A stretch of 64,000 bases of DNA, taken from the NCBI GenBank assembly GCA_030654175.1, contig JAURXZ010000008.1:179426-243425 (forward strand), in the 5' to 3' direction. Positions 23,509 to 62,580 of this stretch are shown in pieces (within the stretch, counting starts at the first letter, position 1; each line of letters starts with the position of its first letter). The stretch is from Bacteroidia bacterium. Its GTDB lineage: Bacteria > Bacteroidota > Bacteroidia > 2-12-FULL-35-15. Below the pieces are notes generated by a model, which ran no database searches, was not told where the DNA came from, and was given only the letters and a program-made list of their open reading frames with translations. A program made the position numbers and the translations under genes.

Positions 23509-26445
23509 TCACTTTACTAACGTTACCGTCCCAATAAAACTATGCCTTTTATTAAATACATCGGTGATTTCAACTTTCCAAACAAAAACATCCATTTGAG
23601 CCATGTTTTCACCGGTATTCGCTTTCCCGTCCCATTTTTCATTCAACTCTTTTCCATGAAAAACCATATCACCCCAGCGGTCAAATATTAACAGGTCGTA
23701 TTTTTCAATACCTACACCGGATCCGAAAAAATAATCATTGGTACCATTTCCACCCGGTGAAAATGCACTAGGTATGAAAAAAGTAAATGCAGGTTTAATT
23801 ATAATTTCATGAACTGTGGTATCATAACATCCACCGCCATTACGGACAATTAGGGTTACTAAATAGTTGGCTGAATTTTCATTGGAATATTCATGTGAAG
23901 GATTAGATATTCCCGGTGCCAAAGAATCTCCGTCTCCAAAATTCCAGTTCCAGTAATTTACATCAGATGAGGACTGATCATTGAAATTAATAGTTGGGTC
24001 AAGGATCGTTGCGGGATTTGGAGTATAATTAAATTCTGCGACAGGTACGCTAAATACCTCCACTAAATGCGTTTGAACCAGCGATGAAACACATCCATTA
24101 TTTGAAGTAGCGATAAGCTTTATATCGTAAAAACCTGTTTGTGTAAAACAATTGGAAGGATCTTGTAAAGTGGAGCCGGGGCCGCCATCTCCGAAATCCC
24201 AATTCCACGACACAATAGTAGCTCCTCCGCCAACAGTTGTTGAATTAGAAAAATCGGTACAATGTATAGGGCATCCGGCTGAGAGGTCGGCAATAAAATC
24301 GACTGCAGGTATTTCATAAAAACGAAACGTAACATTTGACGAAGAAAAGGTACAAGGCCCTGCCGGATCGTTTGTTGTTAATGTTAATATCACTGAATCT
24401 GCTGCGTACTCTGCTGTACTTGGAGTATATACGGCATTCAAAGCTGTGTTATCTGGCGAATACGTTCCGGTGCCACCACTCCATGTTGCGCTTGTAGCTG
24501 CACCTCCTATTGAGCCGGAGAGAGTTATGTTTGAACCAGAACAAACGTACTGTCCGGATCCTGCGTTAGCTGTGGGCAAATGATTGATGGTTATGATCAT
24601 TTGATCACTCACACCCACACAGGACCCAGCCGTATCGTTGGGAGTATAGGTTAATGTTACAGTTCCTGCTGTTACTTCGGCTGCACTTGGAGTATAAATA
24701 GCGGTAGGGGCTGTGTTGTCAGGATTATAAGTTCCTGTACCTCCACTCCAGGTTGCACTGGATGCAGTACCACCAATAAAGCCTTGTAAAGTTGCGGTAT
24801 TGCCAATACAGATAGTTTGGTCCGCACCTGCAGAAACAACATTTTGAGGGCTTACTAAAATTATCATTTGATCGCTTACTGAAGAACAAGGCCCAACAGG
24901 ATCATTGGTGGTTAAGGTTAAATAAACACTTCCGGAGTCTATTTCTGCAACACTTGGGGTGTAAATGCAGTTTAAAGATGTATTGTTCGGATTAAATGTA
25001 CCGGAGCCTCCGCTCCATGTTCCGGTTGTAGCTGAGCCACTTACAGAGCCAACCAATGTGGTTGTTCCACCACATATTGTTTTATCAGGGCCAGCGTTGG
25101 CAACTGGTAATGGATAAGTAGTTACTTTCAATGAGTCAGAGGCAACACAACCGCTTTTAGTAGCGGTTAAAGTGTAATTTGTGATAACAGGTACCGCTCC
25201 TCCATTTGTTAAGGTTACGGATGGATTTGATATGGCAGCATTACTTAATCCGGTAGCGGGTGTCCAGGAGTATGTAGTGCCGGTAACAGGTGCAATACCA
25301 ATAGTTACACTGCCACCAGTACATATTGAAGTATCAGGTCCTGCATTCAGGGTTGGCACACCCGTAATAAACACTTTCACAGTATCTATACCTGTACAGC
25401 CCCCTTGCTGATAGATTAAAAATATACTTTCGGTTGGTTCTGTTAATCCATCTACAGTTGGGACAATGGGAAGGGTAGCACATGACTGGCCCGCAGGAAT
25501 GGTAATAGTGGTACCAATAGTAGTATAATCGGTTCCATTAATTGCAGTTCCGCCAATAAGATAGGGAATAGTAACCGGGGCGGAGGTTGAACCCGGTCGG
25601 CAAAATTCAAAAGCTCCATCCTGGCAATTTTCTGTTGCATTTGCAATTGTGGCAGTAGCCGTTACAGGTTGACATTGTATACTTCCAGCCTCTAAGAATA
25701 CCCCTGAATCGTAAATACAATCACCGGCATCTGCAATAACAATTTTTAAATGGTAGATCTGGCAAGGCTGAACAACGACCCATGCTGCAAGCACTGTTGT
25801 GTATCCATCATACTCAATAGAAGTTCCGGAATTAGTCACATAAAACTGGGAATTGGTATTACCATTAACGTTATCAATTGATACATCAATACCATTCGGT
25901 AAAACCGCAATGTTTGGCTGGCCTGTTATTCCGGGGCCACTGATAAAAAATGCAAAGGGATCATTAACGTTTGCATTCACAAATTCGGGATATTCTTCCG
26001 AACCGAAAACGAAATTAAACCTTAGGGTATCACATATTGGGATAATGTCGAATTCCAGGGCACATGCATCAAATGTAGTAGCGCCAATTAATGTATTTAA
26101 TTGTGTATCTCCGGCAGTGCTGTTACATGTACCTGCTGAATTACTGCTTGAGTTGGGTGAAGCAACCGAAGTGCTGCCAGAGGTAAGCAAAACACCATTT
26201 GTGAAACCAATGCTTGAAGTTCCGGTGAAAGAACCAATTCCGTTGGTTGCACAGTTTATTGTTGCATTGCTAACAGTAATAGAAGGCCCGGCAAGCAACT
26301 CGGCTAGCTGCTGAGCAGTTGAGCTATTGTTAAAAGTCAGCTGAGCGATAGCAGAATTAATACCAATAAAAAGGAAAAATGAGACAAAACAAAATAGATG
26401 TGAGATGTGAGATGTTAGATGCGAGATTTTGTTGTGTTTATTCAT
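23509..26445 (-). CDS. T9SS type B sorted protein with choice-of-anchor L domain (paralog B)
   Basis: About 978 residues using the Met codon at 26443-26445 (MNKHNKISHL), which opens a normal signal peptide; a start at 26490 would put 15 polar residues ahead of it. Domain order equals paralog A: choice-of-anchor L, Calx-beta-like, Ig-like, three GTWSGG repeats, two PKD domains, CHU_C. The signal-peptide n-region (residues 6-17, KISHLTSHISHL) is encoded by five phased 7-base repeats (26394-26428) with an inverted partner upstream at 26479-26520. The first six residues and the leader are shared with the gene at 35253-38087, indicating a common 5' origin. Likely surface-exposed and T9SS-exported. 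Confidence 0.9.
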   Translation of the reverse strand: MNKHNKISHLTSHISHLFCFVSFFLFIGINSAIAQLTFNNSSTAQQLAELLAGPSITVSNATINCATNGIGSFTGTSSIGFTNGVLLTSGSTSVASPNSSSNSAGTCNSTAGDTQLNTLIGATTFDACALEFDIIPICDTLRFNFVFGSEEYPEFVNANVNDPFAFFISGPGITGQPNIAVLPNGIDVSIDNVNGNTNSQFYVTNSGTSIEYDGYTTVLAAWVVVQPCQIYHLKIVIADAGDCIYDSGVFLEAGSIQCQPVTATATIANATENCQDGAFEFCRPGSTSAPVTIPYLIGGTAINGTDYTTIGTTITIPAGQSCATLPIVPTVDGLTEPTESIFLIYQQGGCTGIDTVKVFITGVPTLNAGPDTSICTGGSVTIGIAPVTGTTYSWTPATGLSNAAISNPSVTLTNGGAVPVITNYTLTATKSGCVASDSLKVTTYPLPVANAGPDKTICGGTTTLVGSVSGSATTGTWSGGSGTFNPNNTSLNCIYTPSVAEIDSGSVYLTLTTNDPVGPCSSVSDQMIILVSPQNVVSAGADQTICIGNTATLQGFIGGTASSATWSGGTGTYNPDNTAPTAIYTPSAAEVTAGTVTLTYTPNDTAGSCVGVSDQMIITINHLPTANAGSGQYVCSGSNITLSGSIGGAATSATWSGGTGTYSPDNTALNAVYTPSTAEYAADSVILTLTTNDPAGPCTFSSSNVTFRFYEIPAVDFIADLSAGCPIHCTDFSNSTTVGGGATIVSWNWDFGDGGPGSTLQDPSNCFTQTGFYDIKLIATSNNGCVSSLVQTHLVEVFSVPVAEFNYTPNPATILDPTINFNDQSSSDVNYWNWNFGDGDSLAPGISNPSHEYSNENSANYLVTLIVRNGGGCYDTTVHEIIIKPAFTFFIPSAFSPGGNGTNDYFFGSGVGIEKYDLLIFDRWGDMVFHGKELNEKWDGKANTGENMAQMDVFVWKVEITDVFNKRHSFIGTVTLVK

Positions 26446-35252: not shown

Positions 35253-38087
35253 TTATTTCACTAAAGTAACTGTACCAATAAAACTGTGCTTTTTATTAAA
35301 CACATCGGTAAGTTCAACTTTCCAGACATAAACGTCTATTTGAGAATCATCACTTCCACTATTGGCTTTTCCGTTCCATTTATCAGACAGAGCCTTGCCA
35401 TGAAAGATCATATCTCCCCAACGGTCAAAGATCCACATATCATATTTTGTAATTCCAATACCTGAACCAAAGAAATGATCATTAATTCCATTTGCATTTG
35501 GAGAAAATGCTGTTGGCATGAAGAACGTAAATGCTGGTCCGATCATAACTTGATGTGAGATAGTATCATAACATCCATCGCTATTGTGCACAATTAATGT
35601 TGTAAGATAAGTACCCGTTACCTGGTTAGGGTAACCATGCATTGGATCCGATATGTTGGGTGCGAGTGTAGTGCTGTCGCCAAAATCCCAACTCCAGTAA
35701 TTTACATCAGATGATGACTGATCATTAAAATTAATTGCAGGATCAAGTAAACTTGCCGGGTCAGGAGTAGTGGTAAATTCTGCTACAGGAACGTTAAATA
35801 CCTCAACAAAATTAGATTTAGTTAAAGAGGACACGCATCCATTGCTTGAAATGGCGGTTAATGTAATATCGTAATAACCGGAGGTTAAGAAGCAATGCGA
35901 TGGATTTTGAAGATTAGATCCAGCTCCACCATCTCCAAAATTCCAATTCCAACTTGAAATGGTAAAACCCACACCTGCAGTTGTTGCATCTGTGAAGTTT
36001 GAACATAATATGGGGCAACCTGTAGAGGTGTCAATTGTGAAATTCACCACCGGATTTTCATAAAATTTAAAATTAACAGTTGAAGTAGAAAACGAACAGG
36101 AGCCTGCAGGATCATTTGTAGTTAAGGTTAATGTTACCGTACCGGCTGCAAATTCAGCGGGGGTTGCAGTATAAACTGCATTTAATGTTGTGTTATCAGG
36201 TGAATAGGTGCCATTGCCTCCGCTCCATGTCCCGCTGGTTGCACTGCCGCCTATTGCTCCGGCAAGCGTAATTCCAGAACCTGCACAAACAAATTGCGTT
36301 GAGCCTGCATTGGCAGTAGGTAACTGCTCTATGGTTATTACCACTATATCATTTGCTCCAGGACAAGAGCCTGTATTATCAGCACTAAAACTTAACGAAA
36401 CGGAACCTGCTGCCGCCTCTGCAATACTTGGAGTATAAACTGCGGTAGCATTTGTGTTATCCGGACTGTATGATCCTGTGCCACCACTCCATGAACCTGT
36501 TCCGGAACTTATGCTGCCCGATAAGGCTACAGTATTACCAACACAAATGGTTTGGTCAGGCCCGGCAGAAATACTGGAAACTGCATTAAAAGTAATTTGC
36601 ATTTGATCATTTGCAGAAGGACAAGAGCCCGGAGGATCATCAGTTGTTAGTGTTAAAGTAACACTGCCTGAACTTATTTCAAACGAACTGAGGGTGTATG
36701 TACAATTTAAAGTGGTATTGTTTGGTGTATATGTGCCTGCGCCACCGGTCCAGGTTCCCATAGTAGCTGTCCCACCAATCGAACCTGCTAAAGTTAATGT
36801 TGAATTACATATTGTTTGGTCGGGACCAGCATTGGCTGTGGGGGGGGGGATAACCAAAACAAAAACACTGTCGGTATAGGAACATCCGGGGATAGTATCT
36901 TTTACAATATACCAACCTGTATGAGCCAATGTTGCATTGGTTATAGTTGGATTTTGAAAGGTAGAAGTATAACCGTTTGGTCCTGTCCATTGATACGTTG
37001 CATTGGTAACGGTAGATGCTGTAAGTGAAATTGCTCCTCCTACACAAACGGTGTCACCAATACCGCTGAATGAACATGAAACACCAGTGCATGGTGGAGG
37101 TGTAACAGTTACCGTAACCGGGGAAGAAAAAGTAATAGGACCATTGCAGGTATTATTTACTATGGTTGCAGTATAGGTAGTTGTAGTGGTTGGACATACA
37201 CTTATTGTTGGGGTTGTTCCAATAGAAACATTTCCGGGAGCGTACCAATTAAAAGTGTATTGAGGAGCTCCTGTAGGTGTAAAACGTTGTCCATCGTTTG
37301 TGGCAGACCATTGGGTAGGATAATTTCTGCCGGGGACAGTAACTGCCTGAGTTCCGGAAGAATTTTGAATACCTTCAATAGCAGCACCGCTATTCCAGCC
37401 TGAACAGAGGGGTTTGTCTTTAATGTATATCTCTATGTTGTTGGTTGTTTCATACAAAACTATTTGGGAAGTTGCCAATTGAGAATTACATGAAGAAGAG
37501 TACATTGAAATATCTGTCCAGGAAACAACAAATGACCTGCATGGAGCAGTACCCTGAACTTTCCAGTTGATTATAGGGGTACTGGATGACGACACAGATG
37601 GATCTATATCGTGCCATGGTCCCATTATACAGTTTGTTAAATCTGCTGGCGTGGCGGAAGGTACAGCCGCACTTATAGGCCAGGTATTATAATTGCCTGC
37701 GTTGGCTACGTCAAATGATAGTAAAACGTTTGAACCAATAACACACTGGGTATAGGTATTACCAAAAAAACTAAAACAGAATGGAATAGTAATTGCACTC
37801 GACCAGGTATCATCAATTCCAAGCAAAACTGTTGTACCTGTGCTGAATGAAAAAGGGGTATAAGGAACAGAACTTACACTATAGGACGTTGTAGCTTTGG
37901 TACCTTGCAATGTGGCGCTAATAGAAGTGCAGCCGGAGCATAGACTCGCATTGGGGCCAACAGTTAAATTAGGGCAGGATGCGGATTGAGCAAAAGTTAC
38001 CTGTGAAAATAAAGTAATGCAAAGTAACAAAACAAAAAAATGTGAGTAATGGGATTTGAGATTTGAGATTTTATTGTGTTTATTCAT
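35253..38087 (-). CDS. T9SS type B sorted nidogen-like/PKD protein (paralog E)
   Basis: 944 residues. Signal peptide MNKHNKISNLKSHYSHFF plus hydrophobic core, cleavage after TFAQ. The N-terminal ~270 residues have a nidogen-like character (FSFFGNTYTQCVIGSNVLLS, SFVVSWTDIS, NNIEIYIKDKP, AIEGIQNSSG). An Ig-like region follows (CSFSGIGDTVCVGG), then three GTWSGG-type repeats, two PKD domains (WNFGDGG, WDFGDST) and CHU_C (MPTAFSPNANGINDHFFG, FDRWGDMIFHGKAL). The 5' coding region and leader match paralog B, but the N-terminal functional domain differs, suggesting domain swapping between paralogs. Residues 6-15 are encoded by phased heptamers. Confidence 0.9.
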   Translation of the reverse strand: MNKHNKISNLKSHYSHFFVLLLCITLFSQVTFAQSASCPNLTVGPNASLCSGCTSISATLQGTKATTSYSVSSVPYTPFSFSTGTTVLLGIDDTWSSAITIPFCFSFFGNTYTQCVIGSNVLLSFDVANAGNYNTWPISAAVPSATPADLTNCIMGPWHDIDPSVSSSSTPIINWKVQGTAPCRSFVVSWTDISMYSSSCNSQLATSQIVLYETTNNIEIYIKDKPLCSGWNSGAAIEGIQNSSGTQAVTVPGRNYPTQWSATNDGQRFTPTGAPQYTFNWYAPGNVSIGTTPTISVCPTTTTTYTATIVNNTCNGPITFSSPVTVTVTPPPCTGVSCSFSGIGDTVCVGGAISLTASTVTNATYQWTGPNGYTSTFQNPTITNATLAHTGWYIVKDTIPGCSYTDSVFVLVIPPPTANAGPDQTICNSTLTLAGSIGGTATMGTWTGGAGTYTPNNTTLNCTYTLSSFEISSGSVTLTLTTDDPPGSCPSANDQMQITFNAVSSISAGPDQTICVGNTVALSGSISSGTGSWSGGTGSYSPDNTNATAVYTPSIAEAAAGSVSLSFSADNTGSCPGANDIVVITIEQLPTANAGSTQFVCAGSGITLAGAIGGSATSGTWSGGNGTYSPDNTTLNAVYTATPAEFAAGTVTLTLTTNDPAGSCSFSTSTVNFKFYENPVVNFTIDTSTGCPILCSNFTDATTAGVGFTISSWNWNFGDGGAGSNLQNPSHCFLTSGYYDITLTAISSNGCVSSLTKSNFVEVFNVPVAEFTTTPDPASLLDPAINFNDQSSSDVNYWSWDFGDSTTLAPNISDPMHGYPNQVTGTYLTTLIVHNSDGCYDTISHQVMIGPAFTFFMPTAFSPNANGINDHFFGSGIGITKYDMWIFDRWGDMIFHGKALSDKWNGKANSGSDDSQIDVYVWKVELTDVFNKKHSFIGTVTLVK

Positions 38088-42439: not shown

Positions 42440-44239
42440 TCAATTTGCTTTTACTAATTTATTATCCTGATATTTAAGAATGTAGACAAATTTATTCTCA
42501 AATCCACTGTCTAAAGGATATTGCATGAAGTTGAAATTGGTTTCAATACCCTGGTATTTATAATCAACTATATTATTTAAAAATCCGGTACCATATTTCT
42601 GAAGTGCAGAAATAAAATAATAAGCGATATCATATCCCTGATAAGAATACAATTCAGGATCAGTTTTAAACCGTTCATAAAAGGTATTAATGAAATTTCG
42701 TGTCACCGGATTTTGGTAATCAATATAATTATTAGATGGAATGTGTACAGAAAGTTTATTCAGATAGTCAAAATCCAGGTTGTCATAGTTTATCCAGCTT
42801 TGAAGGCCGAGTAGCACAATCTTATATTTATCCGCCAGAGGATTTAATTTGCTTATAAATTCAGTTACATAAGATTGATTATTAGAAGGCAATACAATCA
42901 CATTTAATTTAGAGGAACTAAGCATATTTTCAATTGAGGCAGAACTTCTAACTTCCTTTAATGAATCGGCAGCTTTGTATCCGGCTTTTATTAATGCTTT
43001 ATTGGCAATGTTTTTGAAAACATTATAAAACGATACTTCTTTAGGATTGCCATTGTTTACTAAAATAATATTTTGTTTCTGAAAAGTATCGATGACAAAA
43101 TGTGCCATTTGCTCTACCTGCATTGCATTTGATGGCAATACTTTGCAAACATATAAATTGTCGAACAAAACTTTATTTATTTGTGTAAATGGTGATACAA
43201 TTGGAATAGAATGATCTTTTGCAAATTTTGCAACCGGCATAAAACTCGAGCCATAAAGGGGACCAATCATCAGATGCATTTCCTTTAACTCCGGCTTTTT
43301 TAGAATATTCAGAATATTTAATGAATCCTGATCATCAATATCATAAACAAAGATCTTAGCATTTAATTTTTGTTTTTTTAATGAATCTATTGCTAATAAA
43401 GCACCTTCATAAAATTGTAGCGCAATACTGCTTTTGTTTGGTAATTGAGCATCGCCTTTTATAATGGCTTCAATATCAATTTCGTTTGCCTCATTGGCAT
43501 GGAAAGGTAAAAAGAATGCAATATTATATTCGTCTTTTACCTCTCCTTTATAACTGATGGTGGATGCTGCAATAGTATCCAGATCTCTGTTTTCAATTAA
43601 AAAAGTTGTAGAACTATCTACAGGGCCCATTAATATCGGATCGGTTTGGGCAACCTTCTTTTCTAAAACTTTTTCAGTAGGTTTTTTTATTGGTTTTTCA
43701 GTGGTTATTATAGTAGATTTTGGAAGGATCTCAGGCCCACTCTTGGGTTTTAACAAAGATATTTTCAATGTTTGCCCACCTTTTAAACCCTCTTTCAATT
43801 CGGGGTTCAGTATTTTTATTTTTTCAACAGTTGTGTTATACTGTTTAGAGATCGAATATAATGTTTGCCCGGCTTCTACCTGATGCAATACATAATTACC
43901 GCCATTAGTTATCGGAGCAGATTCGATCTTTTTTGCTTTTTTAGTCGGGACCTTAAGAACTTGTCCGGGTTTGATCCCATCTATCGCTTCCGGATTTTCA
44001 ATTACAATATCATTTAAACTCAGCTCATAGCCTTTTGCAATTGCGAAAAGTGTTTGTCCTTTTTCAACAGTATGTAAATAATATTTAACACCGTTAATGG
44101 TAGTAACGTTTTTGCTTTTCAAGATACCACCTGAAGGCTTTTCCTGAGAATAGGATTGCGTAGTATTAAGTACAAAGTATAAAGTACAAAGTATGTATAC
44201 CAGATGTAACGTATAATATTTTATTGTTTTTAATTTCAT
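42440..44239 (-). CDS. exported LysM protein with periplasmic-binding-protein fold
   Basis: 599 residues. The signal peptide is residues 1-31 (hydrophobic VYILCTLYFVLN core, cleavage near SYS). Two LysM peptidoglycan-binding domains follow, HTVEKGQTLFAIAKGYELSL (about 56-100) and HQVEAGQTLYSISKQYNTTV (about 115-160). After a low-complexity Lys/Pro linker comes a ~370-residue type I periplasmic-binding fold (YNIAFFLPFHANE, LMIGPLYGSSFMPVAKFA, IPIVSPFTQINK), similar to LivJ-like amino-acid receptors. The pairing of LysM with this fold beside guaA is a recurring Bacteroidota arrangement. It probably anchors on the cell wall; ligand unknown. Residues 14-26 are encoded by phased heptamers (44164-44198), described separately. 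Confidence 0.88.
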   Translation of the reverse strand: MKLKTIKYYTLHLVYILCTLYFVLNTTQSYSQEKPSGGILKSKNVTTINGVKYYLHTVEKGQTLFAIAKGYELSLNDIVIENPEAIDGIKPGQVLKVPTKKAKKIESAPITNGGNYVLHQVEAGQTLYSISKQYNTTVEKIKILNPELKEGLKGGQTLKISLLKPKSGPEILPKSTIITTEKPIKKPTEKVLEKKVAQTDPILMGPVDSSTTFLIENRDLDTIAASTISYKGEVKDEYNIAFFLPFHANEANEIDIEAIIKGDAQLPNKSSIALQFYEGALLAIDSLKKQKLNAKIFVYDIDDQDSLNILNILKKPELKEMHLMIGPLYGSSFMPVAKFAKDHSIPIVSPFTQINKVLFDNLYVCKVLPSNAMQVEQMAHFVIDTFQKQNIILVNNGNPKEVSFYNVFKNIANKALIKAGYKAADSLKEVRSSASIENMLSSSKLNVIVLPSNNQSYVTEFISKLNPLADKYKIVLLGLQSWINYDNLDFDYLNKLSVHIPSNNYIDYQNPVTRNFINTFYERFKTDPELYSYQGYDIAYYFISALQKYGTGFLNNIVDYKYQGIETNFNFMQYPLDSGFENKFVYILKYQDNKLVKAN

Positions 44240-44349
44240 TTTTATCTGAATGAATTATATAGAAAGTATAAAGCTTTATCTATAGATATTTGACATGATA
44301 TAGAATTTTTCATAATACTTTGTACTCAATACTTAATACTTTGTGCTTT
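44164..44349. repeat. inverted heptamer arrays straddling the start codon of the LysM gene
   Basis: Left array 44164-44198, five 7-base units (TACAAAG and TATAAAG type), inside the gene where it encodes the signal-peptide core. Right array 44315-44349, five 7-base units (ATACTTT, GTACTCA type), touching the guaA stop (44350). The arrays are inverse to each other; the LysM start (44237-44239) lies in the ~116-base loop. Confidence 0.8.
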
Positions 44350-45882
44350 TTATTCCCATTCAATAGTAGCAGGTGGTTTAGAGCTAATGTCGTATACCAC
44401 TCTGTTAATACCTTTTACTTTATTTATTATTTCGTTTGATACTTTTCCTAAAAAATCATATGGTAAGTGGCACCAATCGGCTGTCATGCCATCAGTAGAA
44501 GTTACTGCACGCAAAGCTACAACATTTTCGTAAGTACGTTCATCACCCATTACACCTACTGTTTGAACCGGAAGGAATATTGCTCCAGCCTGCCAAACAT
44601 CTTTATATAATCCTGATGTTTTTAAATTGTCAATAAAAATATGATCCACTTCCTGTAATATTCTTACTTTTTCTAATGTGATATCACCTAATATCCGAAT
44701 TGCCAAACCTGGTCCCGGAAAAGGATGGCGACTTAAAATAGCATCATCAATATCCAGTGATTTACCAACTCTTCTCACTTCATCTTTAAATAAAGTGTTG
44801 AGAGGTTCAACGATTTTCAATTTCATAAAATCGGGCAAACCACCTACATTGTGATGAGATTTAATTGTTGCGGATGCGCCACCATTAACGGATATAGATT
44901 CAATAACATCAGGATAAATGGTGCCTTGTGCCAGCCATTTTACATCTTGAATGCGTTTTGATTCATCATCGAACACATCGATAAAGACCTTGCCAATTGC
45001 TTTTCTTTTTTTCTCAGGATCGGTAACATTAGCCAGTTCTGAATAAAAGCGTTCCTTCGCATTCACGCCTTTTACATTCAATCCCATGTGTTGATAAGAA
45101 GCAAGCACACCTTCAAATTCATTTTTACGTAACAAGCCGTTGTCAACAAAAATGCAATACAGGTTTTTACCTATTGCTCTATGCAACAATACTGCCGCAA
45201 CACTCGAATCCACTCCTCCACTTAAACCCAAAACCACTTTATCATTTCCTATTTTTTCTTTTAAACTGGCAATAGCGGTCTCTACGAATGAGTCCGGTGT
45301 CCAGTTTTGAGAGCAAGCACAAATATCCACACAAAAGTTTTTCAGCAAAAGACCACCTTCAACAGAATGATATACTTCAGGATGGAATTGAATTCCATAC
45401 GTTTGTTCATTCATCACCTGGTAACCCGCGAATTTTACATCTTTTGTACTGGAAATAATTTCATAGTTATCCGGTATTTTAGTGATGGTATCTGCATGGC
45501 TCATCCATACTTGTGAATTATTGGTCACCCCTTTAAACAGGTCATTATTTTCTTTCACAAAGGATAAATTAGCACGGCCATATTCCCTATGTTCAGAAGA
45601 TAATACTTCACCTCCGAATTTTTGAGCCATTAGCTGTGCTCCGTAACAAACACCTAATAAAGGTAATTTACCTTTAAATGACGACAGGTCAGGATTAGGC
45701 GATTCCGGATCGCGAACCGAAAATGGGCTGCCGGAAAGTATCACACCTTTAACGTCACTTGTAATTTTTGGAATTTTATTAAACGGATGAATTTCACAAT
45801 ATACATTAAGCTCTCTTACTCTGCGTGCTATCAGCTGTGTATATTGGGAACCAAAATCTAGAATTATAATTGTTTCTTGCAT
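44350..45882 (-). CDS. guaA: GMP synthase (glutamine-hydrolysing)
   Basis: Converts XMP to GMP using ATP and glutamine, the last step of guanine nucleotide synthesis. 510 residues, standard. The N-terminal glutamine amidotransferase has nucleophile Cys79 in LLGVCYGAQ and the HPE pair at about 167-169. The ATP-pyrophosphatase P-loop SGGVDSS is at 221-227, and the C-terminal dimerisation domain ends PPATIEWE. The start Met (45880-45882) is immediately preceded on the upstream side by a heptamer array (45891-45932). The guaA-LysM spacing is 110 bases, with the inverted arrays between; the two may be co-transcribed. Confidence 0.98.
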
Positions 45883-50478: not shown

Positions 50479-50636
50479 TAATTGGTGATTAAGTGAATTG
50501 GAGATCTAATGAATTGGAGATTTAGTGAATTAGGGATTTGTTGATTTAGTGATTTAGTGATTTTTTTTAGTTCTCCAATTCTCTATTTCTCTAATTCTCT
50601 GTTTTATACAAATCTCTGATTCGCCAATTCGTTACT
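50479..50636. repeat. octamer-phased inverted repeat filling the GSCFA-LRR spacer
   Basis: Left array 50479-50566: eleven 8-base units in strict register (GAATTGGA, GATTTAGT type). Right array 50573-50636: eight 8-base units (CTCCAATT, CTCTAATT type), inverse to the left. Together they take up essentially the whole spacer from the GSCFA start to the LRR gene stop and would form a long imperfect hairpin. Confidence 0.75.
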
Positions 50637-54114: not shown

Positions 54115-54201
54115 TTTAAAGTTGGAAGTTAGAAAGTGTGAAAGTCTCGTACTTAACTTTCTAACTTTAAACTTTCTAACTTTAAACTTTCTAACTTTAA
54201 A
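54115..54201. repeat. tandem 15-mer and hairpin between atpD and atpC
   Basis: Three exact tandem copies of CTTTCTAACTTTAAA occupy 54157-54201; upstream, TTTAAAGTT (54115-54123) and GTTAGAAAG (54128-54136) contain their inverse. The two halves can pair into a stem between the genes. Confidence 0.85.
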
Positions 54202-54213
54202 CTTAAAAAAAAA

Positions 54214-62297: not shown

Positions 62298-62301
62298 AAA
62301 A

Positions 62302-62357
62302 ATGGATAATTAATAATGGATAATTAAAAATGGATATTGGATATTTAATAATGGATA
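62302..62357. repeat. heptamer array, ATGGATA type
   Basis: Eight consecutive 7-base units in strict register, with units of types ATGGATA, ATTAATA and TTGGATA. Begins 4 bases after the LytTR stop. Confidence 0.85.
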
Positions 62358-62374
62358 ATGTTGAAAACCCAGTT

Positions 62375-62580
62375 CATCCAACCTCCAACCTCTAATCTCT
62401 AACCTCTAACCTCTAACCTCTAACCTCTAACATCCAACATCTAACATCTAACATCTAACATCTAACATCCAACATCCAACATCCAACAACCAACAACCAC
62501 CAACCTCCAACCACCAACCTCCAACCACCAACCACCAACCAACCAACCAACCAACCAACCAACCAACAACCAACAACCTC
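62375..62580. repeat. heptamer array with graded unit change, CATCTAA/CCTCTAA to CAACCAC type
   Basis: 24 consecutive 7-base units (62375-62542), then six CCAA tetramers (62543-62566), then two more heptamers. The unit drifts in blocks: CCTCTAA-type, then CATCTAA/CATCCAA-type, then CAACCAC-type. The unit CATCCAA is inverse in sense to TTGGATA in the preceding array. Confidence 0.95.

Follow-up and report, generated by a model that had tools for sequence, protein, structure and literature searches.

Tandem heptamer arrays as likely coding sequence of predicted signal peptides in Bacteroidia

The DNA analysed here is a stretch of 64,000 nt from the genome of a Bacteroidia bacterium (GenBank assembly GCA_030654175.1, contig JAURXZ010000008.1, positions 179,426 to 243,425 of the forward strand), called the window throughout, and our subject is a pair of inverted arrays of 7 nt repeats (heptamers) at the junction between guaA and a gene encoding a LysM protein. 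Genomes, contigs and loci carry our own handles (G, C and L, respectively); the genome of the window is G000 and its contig C27. The LysM open reading frame (ORF), 599 residues long, contains two LysM stretches and one periplasmic-binding-protein domain, and its predicted signal peptide coincides in part with one of the arrays. The features of the junction, in the order in which they are read on the minus strand, are:

44350..45882, minus strand: guaA, glutamine-hydrolysing GMP synthase (E 3.4e-237), upstream neighbour of the LysM gene
44315..44349, minus strand: inverted partner array of AAGTATT/AAGTACA-like words, immediately 3′ of the guaA stop codon (TAA)
42440..44239, minus strand: LysM gene, 599 aa, with a Peripla_BP_6 domain (Pfam LysM E 1.7e-17, Peripla_BP_6 E 6e-12)
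44147..44239, minus strand: predicted signal peptide of the LysM protein, residues 1-31, MKLKTIKYYTLHLVYILCTLYFVLNTTQSYS then Q (cleavage site placed by eye)
44162..44194, minus strand: heptamer array of about four units, TTTGTAC/TTTATAC, which is the hydrophobic region (h-region) LCTLYFVLNT of that signal peptide

The period-7 arrays and their inverted arrangement at the guaA-LysM junction are real. Tandem Repeats Finder reported an array of period 7/14 at 44162-44194; the array that it reported at 44313-44341 was weaker (72% matches). Self-similarity at a lag of 7 nt (lag 7) reached the array threshold at three places in the window, compared with none in 30 Markov-3 shuffles. The original prediction, made from the letters of the window, had placed five heptamers in strict register at 44164-44198, within the codons for residues 14-26 of the LysM ORF; the array and the residues stand, with about four good units and a fifth (44192-44198, TATGTAT) that is only partial. 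It had also placed an inverted partner at 44315-44349 against the guaA stop codon, and the LysM start codon between the two arms, and both placements are confirmed. Complementarity between the two arms extends to 26 of 35 positions, a value that none of 2000 mononucleotide shuffles of one arm equalled.

As a 7 nt unit is coprime to three, a tandem array traverses all frames within 21 nt and, if it is free of stops, specifies the same cyclic heptapeptide in every frame. The word TTTGTAC gives FVLCTLY and TTTATAC gives FILYTLY, both without a stop in any frame. Stop codons are absent from every frame of 11260 of the 16384 possible heptamers, and mean hydropathy exceeds 1 in 2002 of these; TTTGTAC (2.16), TTTATAC (1.66) and TTCTGTC (2.21) lie in the top 9% of stop-free words by hydropathy, and TTGTCAA (1.03) lies at the 83rd percentile. 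We consider it likely that the heptamer array of the window is the coding sequence of the predicted signal-peptide core, made from a kind of repeat that is usual between genes. The proposal that the repeat serves as a coding element for the hydrophobic core is supported, and similar cases occur in relatives and elsewhere in the class.

In all 30 genus loci read, our own included, guaA adjoins the LysM gene, and the 29 other LysM loci show 54-70% identity in the N-terminal-most match. A lag-7 excess in the signal-peptide DNA (p<0.05, dinucleotide shuffles) was present in 17 of 33 genus loci, while lags 4, 5, 8, 10, 11 and 13 gave 0, 1, 0, 1, 0 and 1; with synonymous-codon shuffles, lag 7 remained in excess in 10 of 33 loci and the other lags in 0-2. 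Three secreted proteins of the genus were used as controls, and their lag-7 counts were 5/29 (EnvC), 0/30 (M28) and 2/19 (M1) with dinucleotide shuffles, and 3/29 (EnvC) and 0/30 (M28) with synonymous shuffles. For M1, 20 of 30 loci were used (ten distant paralogs being excluded) and 19 scored; 29 of 30 EnvC loci and 12 of 13 LysM loci from the wider class were scored. In L014 and L026 the arrays are further upstream and escaped the test segment of 66 nt, which was anchored without gaps; they were significant in a segment of 84 nt. None of the relatives compared had the same signal-peptide codons without the period of 7. Outside the genus, L125 is the single class-level LysM homolog with a lag-7 excess (peptide VNCQLLTVNC), and three others (L123, L126 and L127) have a lag-8 rather than a lag-7 excess in signal-peptide DNA (p 0.002-0.006). 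Thirteen LysM homologs near guaA in named genomes (L041-L053) showed no heptamer peptide on inspection by eye, with no statistics applied.

The word itself differs among species, while the period and the hydrophobicity persist at many loci. At the LysM gene, TTTRTAC is found in L011, L012, L013, L018, L033 and L040, CTTCTGT in L014, and AATTGTC in L023 and L026; the tree pairs L018 with L026 as sister loci, yet their array words differ. The six TTTRTAC loci fall into two tree groups, and the phase of the array to the cleavage site agrees in five, the distance from LCTLY to the cleavage-site Q being 16 residues (both ends counted) in five loci and 17 in L018. A unit that is not divisible by three, located within the 5′ coding region, could also mark a phase-variable contingency locus, in which a frameshift from the gain or loss of 7 nt would turn the LysM protein off or on; a passage of PMC4692102 cites Lin and Kussell for an over-representation of simple repeats near N-termini, which is suggestive of phase variation. 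However, in the 30 loci read, with one assembly per species, the signal peptide and the LysM region share one uninterrupted frame, and an array of only about four imperfect units would be expected to slip rarely, so that we regard such switching as unlikely.

The RNA of the junction is predicted to fold more stably than shuffled sequence. The minus-strand transcript of 44155-44355 has a minimum free energy (MFE) of -34.8 kcal/mol (z -3.60; equalled by none of 200 shuffles), and that of 44130-44400, the segment named for folding in the original prediction, has z -3.23 (1 of 200 as good). The original prediction supposed that pairing of the arms could hide or expose the LysM start codon. The start codon is indeed predicted to be paired, with chances of being unpaired of 0.15, 0.02 and 0.01 for its A, T and G, but in the MFE structure its partners belong to a small local stem of 6 bp and not to the arms. 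This local A/T stem lies at 44236-44254, in the loop of the heptamer hairpin.

These folds would suit a regulatory hairpin, in which base pairing of the two arms within the guaA-LysM mRNA would govern its translation or stability, with the coding use secondary, and z is low in five of the six TTTRTAC loci (-3.5, -3.6, -4.8, -4.5 and -3.9). The sixth, L013, has a z value of -1.88, however, and loci with other array words give +1.86 (L014), -0.26 (L023) and +0.14 (L026). Only six of the 30 genus junctions, our own included, fall below -3 (L011, L012, L016, L018, L033 and L040), and L016 does so without any array; the hairpin is thereby rejected as a conserved unit, and regulation by the arms is not supported as a general feature. 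In addition, no partner arm was obvious by eye in the 80 nt upstream of five signal-peptide arrays found in other genomes (L240, L249, L252, L257 and L246), and within 44000-44600 a terminator scan found 0 sites and Rfam gave 0 matches at the gathering score. A promoter scan found 5 candidates, with 2.6 expected. We regard a primarily regulatory hairpin as an unlikely explanation, although hairpin control of translation, like phase variation, might be an additional role. The first arm carries stops in two of three frames (in four of the six TTTRTAC loci, those where the array finder detected it), which may be part of the reason why the start codon follows this arm.

In 800 kb sampled from the 5.1 Mb of G000, period-7 and period-8 arrays occupied 22 and 17 places, compared with 0 and 0 in one Markov-3 control; periods 12, 14 and 15 were likewise above the control, and the period-7 places were mostly intergenic. 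Several co-directional junctions have an array of A/T/G words directly after the stop codon and an array of A/T/C words directly before the next start codon, among them:

C27:24396-24500, own genome: junction with such an array pair
C27:24797-24868, own genome: junction with such an array pair
C27:294254-294402, own genome: junction with such an array pair

The guaA-LysM junction resembles these, but its start codon falls between the arms and its second arm is translated. Words related to the LysM array occur at other gene junctions of G000, and the idea that intergenic repeat DNA was recruited into the LysM gene is plausible in this genome. In the 96 nt upstream of start codons, the similarity threshold (0.70) was reached by lag 7 in 39 of 576 regions, by lag 8 in 48 and by other lags in 1-19. 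With so many arrays just before starts, the LysM start codon might have been misplaced, the array being an untranslated leader and the true protein start lying downstream. We hold this to be very improbable: the LysM protein would lose its predicted signal peptide, whereas relatives, as judged by eye, are hydrophobic at this place and have a cleavage motif resembling AQ/SQ there, and the near-constant spacing of LCTLY from the cleavage-site Q in the TTTRTAC loci also speaks against it.

That the array of the LysM gene is coding sequence is also consistent with where its word occurs elsewhere. We searched for exact three-unit arrays in 295 genomes of the class. In the 36 genus genomes, TTTRTAC gave 14 matches at 11 places, 5 of which are the LysM signal peptide, and the window array is the only match in G000. 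Twenty-two TTTRTAC places were classified (11 from the genus search), and nine had a long ORF in the hydrophobic orientation; all nine of these ORFs carry the array in an N-terminal predicted signal peptide (eight by rule, L228 by eye), and they comprise five LysM genes, one PorP-like gene and three lipoprotein genes (families by eye). Read in the opposite orientation, TTTRTAC encodes the basic n-region of L115, L230 and L234; in L233 and L109 it is internal to another protein. Predicted signal peptides account for 2 of 3 TTCTGTC places and for 4 of 16 TTGTCAA places, the others of the latter being in enzymes or intergenic; the rule had flagged five TTGTCAA places, and L250 was rejected, as its likely start (MKKDN...) is downstream of the array. 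The control word AACAACC, in its hydrophilic orientation, coincided with a signal peptide at 0 of the 20 places classified, though ORFs cross several of them; in the opposite, hydrophobic orientation it gave one predicted signal peptide, L279. The class-wide listing covers the first places of each genome; it includes 13 of the 21 TTTRTAC matches of G083, at four places, two of them with a locus and classified, and 13 of the 14 TTGTCAA matches of G139; the AACAACC places listed in G033, G275 and G122 are outside the classification.

Some arrays met in this search lie in other settings. In G245 and G139, TTGTCAA arrays are found at N-termini, in enzymes or linkers (L251, L255, L258, L259 and L261), and several of the 14 three-unit matches of G139 are in coding DNA. 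At 1501-1523 of L109 (G034), an AAAGTAC array lies in an apparent C-terminal sorting domain of the type IX secretion system (T9SS), KITIESTKYKVQSIKMYDVLG (by eye).

An array-rich genome from another family of the class, G093, was sampled over 504 kb (contigs C40-C79, first 20 kb of each). Here, lag 7 was found at the N-terminus of 15 of 139 signal-peptide-like genes compared with 0 of 84 other genes, and lags 4, 5, 8, 10, 11 and 13 were found in 1, 1, 6, 2, 3 and 4 of the 139. Among the arrays are perfect ones of several words with up to five units, and the encoded peptides are varied (VYCLLFT, AICHLPS, TSYFLLL, ALGSWLL and LSSVFCL). Under a stricter threshold, signal-peptide DNA carries 8.99 arrays per 10 kb, intergenic DNA 1.41 and other coding DNA 0.45 (12, 10 and 19 arrays; binomial p 4.6e-10), and nine of the 12 words from signal peptides have a mean hydropathy of at least 1.0 in the sense direction, that of a hydrophobic peptide. 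None of these 12 words recurs among the 10 intergenic arrays sampled, which argues against simple intergenic recruitment in G093; growth in place and recruitment are equally possible origins there.

Two genes of G093 share a longer unit. Both start MRKQ..KKVQSTKYKVQG.IATVFFTLYI.LCTSYISF.QN (RKVQ in the second gene), and the 123 bp from the ATG to the cleavage site are 93% identical, with similarity at background level on both flanks. In a BLASTN comparison of 2.9 kb around the two genes, the only other match was that of the element with its own reverse complement (97 nt, 75%). The mature parts are unrelated over the stretches read, one being an SBBP/SprB repeat protein (cut by the end of the locus) and the other a T9SS-tail protein. 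The cassette is an inverted heptamer pair, in which the n-region of the predicted signal peptide, which is basic, comes from the stop-free first arm and its hydrophobic core from the second. The unit is shared between these unrelated genes and was apparently copied; the copying and its direction are what we infer from the two sequences. For the second gene, the alignments with its two nearest homologs (in G219 and G129; 74% identity) begin no earlier than residues 30 and 28, and the open frame adds at most 11 and 16 residues. The cassette is itself an inverted repeat; terminal inverted repeats together with a target-site duplication would mark a miniature inverted-repeat transposable element. 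Further genes of G093 and G219 carry one or both arms in the predicted signal peptide (L313, L323, L325, L329, L332, L320 and L330). In L316 and L321, also of G093, an array of the TTTGTAC type forms a predicted membrane helix, LYFVLCTLFIVLVFAVF.

Beyond a positively charged n-region, a run of hydrophobic residues and a site for cleavage, a signal peptide needs little. It may therefore be a part of a gene in which a heptamer array can persist. A change of frame from the gain or loss of a unit could be mended by another indel or by an upstream start codon, and slippage or replacement could be the process behind the change of words. The inverted partner reflects the frequent inverted pairing of heptamer arrays at the gene junctions of these genomes. 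Where the start codon falls between the arms, the second arm becomes the h-region; where the first arm is also stop-free, the whole pair can make up a complete signal peptide, with a basic n-region followed by a hydrophobic core. We put forward, tentatively, a wider model in which tandem heptamers act in this class as a frame-proof generator of signal peptides, and in which an inverted pair is a complete, portable predicted signal peptide that can be copied onto new genes and cause secretion of their products. That array-encoded N-termini function as signal peptides is, in turn, what we infer from their sequence.

Several observations weigh against the coding interpretation or its extension to the class. 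Signal peptides were judged by hydropathy and by eye, and G093 was picked because of its arrays. No significant lag-7 excess was found in 16 of the 33 LysM loci, and class-level LysM homologs outside the genus had such an excess in 1 of 12 cases and a lag-8 excess in 3 of 12. In G000, lag 7 was found in 3 of 163 signal-peptide-like genes and other lags in 1-4, so there is no lag-7 excess, and period 7 is ruled out as a general property of signal peptides in this genome; under the strict threshold, one array was in a signal peptide, 18 were intergenic and three were in other coding DNA, with densities per 10 kb of 0.64 in signal-peptide DNA versus 1.84 in intergenic DNA. The window array falls short of its word, which no frame interrupts: one of its other frames contains a stop. 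Among the h-region arrays, those of L011 and L012 have a stop in one other frame, and that of L018 has stops in two; those of L013, L033 and L040 are stop-free in all frames. Three of the 12 signal-peptide arrays of G093 are hydrophilic, and arrays also lie inside enzymes and linkers (L251, L258, L261, L233 and L109). Lastly, alignments of the second cassette gene with some of its more distant relatives (G190:C116 and G129:C218; 40-45% identity) start at residues 4 and 3, and the cassette may therefore not be new in that gene.

Among the controls, EnvC had as many loci in excess at lag 5 (5 of 29), and more at lag 11 (7 of 29), as at lag 7. This result, the T-rich and low-complexity nature of signal-peptide DNA, and the absence of a lag-7 excess over other lags in the signal-peptide-like genes of G000 are all compatible with coincidence, whereby T/C-rich hydrophobic codons would yield lag-7 similarity by chance. 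Coincidence is nevertheless improbable in our view, given that lag 7 exceeds six other lags at the LysM locus, that the excess survived synonymous shuffling in 10 of 33 loci, and that G093 contains perfect arrays of up to five units as well as the shared 123 bp cassette. Overall, the interpretation given in the original prediction is partly supported, its recruitment element being plausible for G000 and disfavoured by the words of G093.

Should the wider model be correct, it would show in concrete terms how a genome can provide proteins with new or substitute signal peptides. It would also caution annotators that an N-terminus which looks like a repeat may, in genomes of this kind, be a genuine signal peptide.

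The window contains further repeats of this type. A second array lies within a predicted signal peptide:

26393..26428 (C27:205818-205853), minus strand: second heptamer array, in the gene of a 978-aa protein and within its predicted signal peptide MNKHNKISHLTSHISHLFCFVSFFLFIGINSAIAQ

Its heptamers are in the n-region, and an AGATT-like stretch follows the stop codon of the upstream gene (by eye). The N-terminus of the 978-aa protein resembles that of a paralog encoded at C27:214678-217512 (window 35253-38087). The pair C27:202933 and C27:214677 was considered as a second portable cassette and ruled out, the proteins being paralogs over about 620 residues. An intergenic region at 62298-62580 contains a long heptamer-like run, AATGGATAATT, followed by CTAACCT/CCAACAT/CCAA. 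At 50480-50630, between two minus-strand genes, period-8 arrays (GTGATTTA / TTCTCTAA) resemble an imperfect inverted pair. An inverted-looking AACTTTC heptamer/octamer pair at 54122-54204 is directly 5′ of an ORF starting MFLEIITPDKKVYSGEVDAVKLPG, which we take to resemble ATP synthase epsilon.

In the open-access literature of PubMed Central (PMC), subscription journals being outside the scope of the search, we found no report of heptamer-coded signal peptides, and several known repeat systems offer partial parallels. MacGregor (2015; PMC4679880) described direct repeats of the heptamer TAACTGA in Beggiatoaceae, Cyanobacteria and some Bacteroidetes, and proposed a role as translational regulators. 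In the sections of that paper drawn on here, these repeats are short arrays at gene junctions, some of them in ORFs and mostly near ORF ends, and one of their strands has stop codons in every frame, the other reading as a repeating heptapeptide that stays open; the words TTTGTAC and TTTATAC share the latter trait, being open in all frames on one strand. The window array, in contrast, is built from TTTRTAC and its complement rather than from TAACTGA/TCAGTTA, the open strand of the published repeat reads LSVISYQ, one inverted repeat is listed there for the main genome, and the term 'signal peptide' is absent from the main text of PMC4679880. The G-rich heptamer repeats of Xanthomonas and Nostoc (PMC4692102) lie, according to the passages cited, between co-directional genes, with the G-rich strand after stops and the C-rich strand before starts, an order that recalls several junctions of G000. 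The window units differ in having no G-runs (AAGTACA and AAGTATT contain no GG), and hence form no G-quadruplex.

Two other systems place repeats within proteins. The tandem repeats of archaeal Borgs (PMC9879509) resemble ours, in the portion of that study considered, in being located in ORFs and enriched in extracellular and signal-peptide-bearing proteins; in contrast to the unit of seven described here, every Borg ORF repeat unit is divisible by three, and the encoded stretches are mostly disordered. If our wider model holds, it would account for the persistence in coding DNA of repeats whose unit is not a multiple of three, in contrast to the triplet rule reported for Borgs. The Rickettsia palindromic elements (Ogata 2000, 2002), as summarized in PMC10969869, are palindromes of about 150 bp fused in frame into unrelated genes and are the closest precedent known to us for a palindrome fused into many proteins. 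They differ from the present unit, which consists of tandem heptamers at a predicted signal peptide, and the occurrence of the same palindromic unit in unrelated genes applies here to the two G093 genes only, not to the window array. Although they belong to no single family among those compared, the signal-peptide heptamers are akin to known heptamer repeats.

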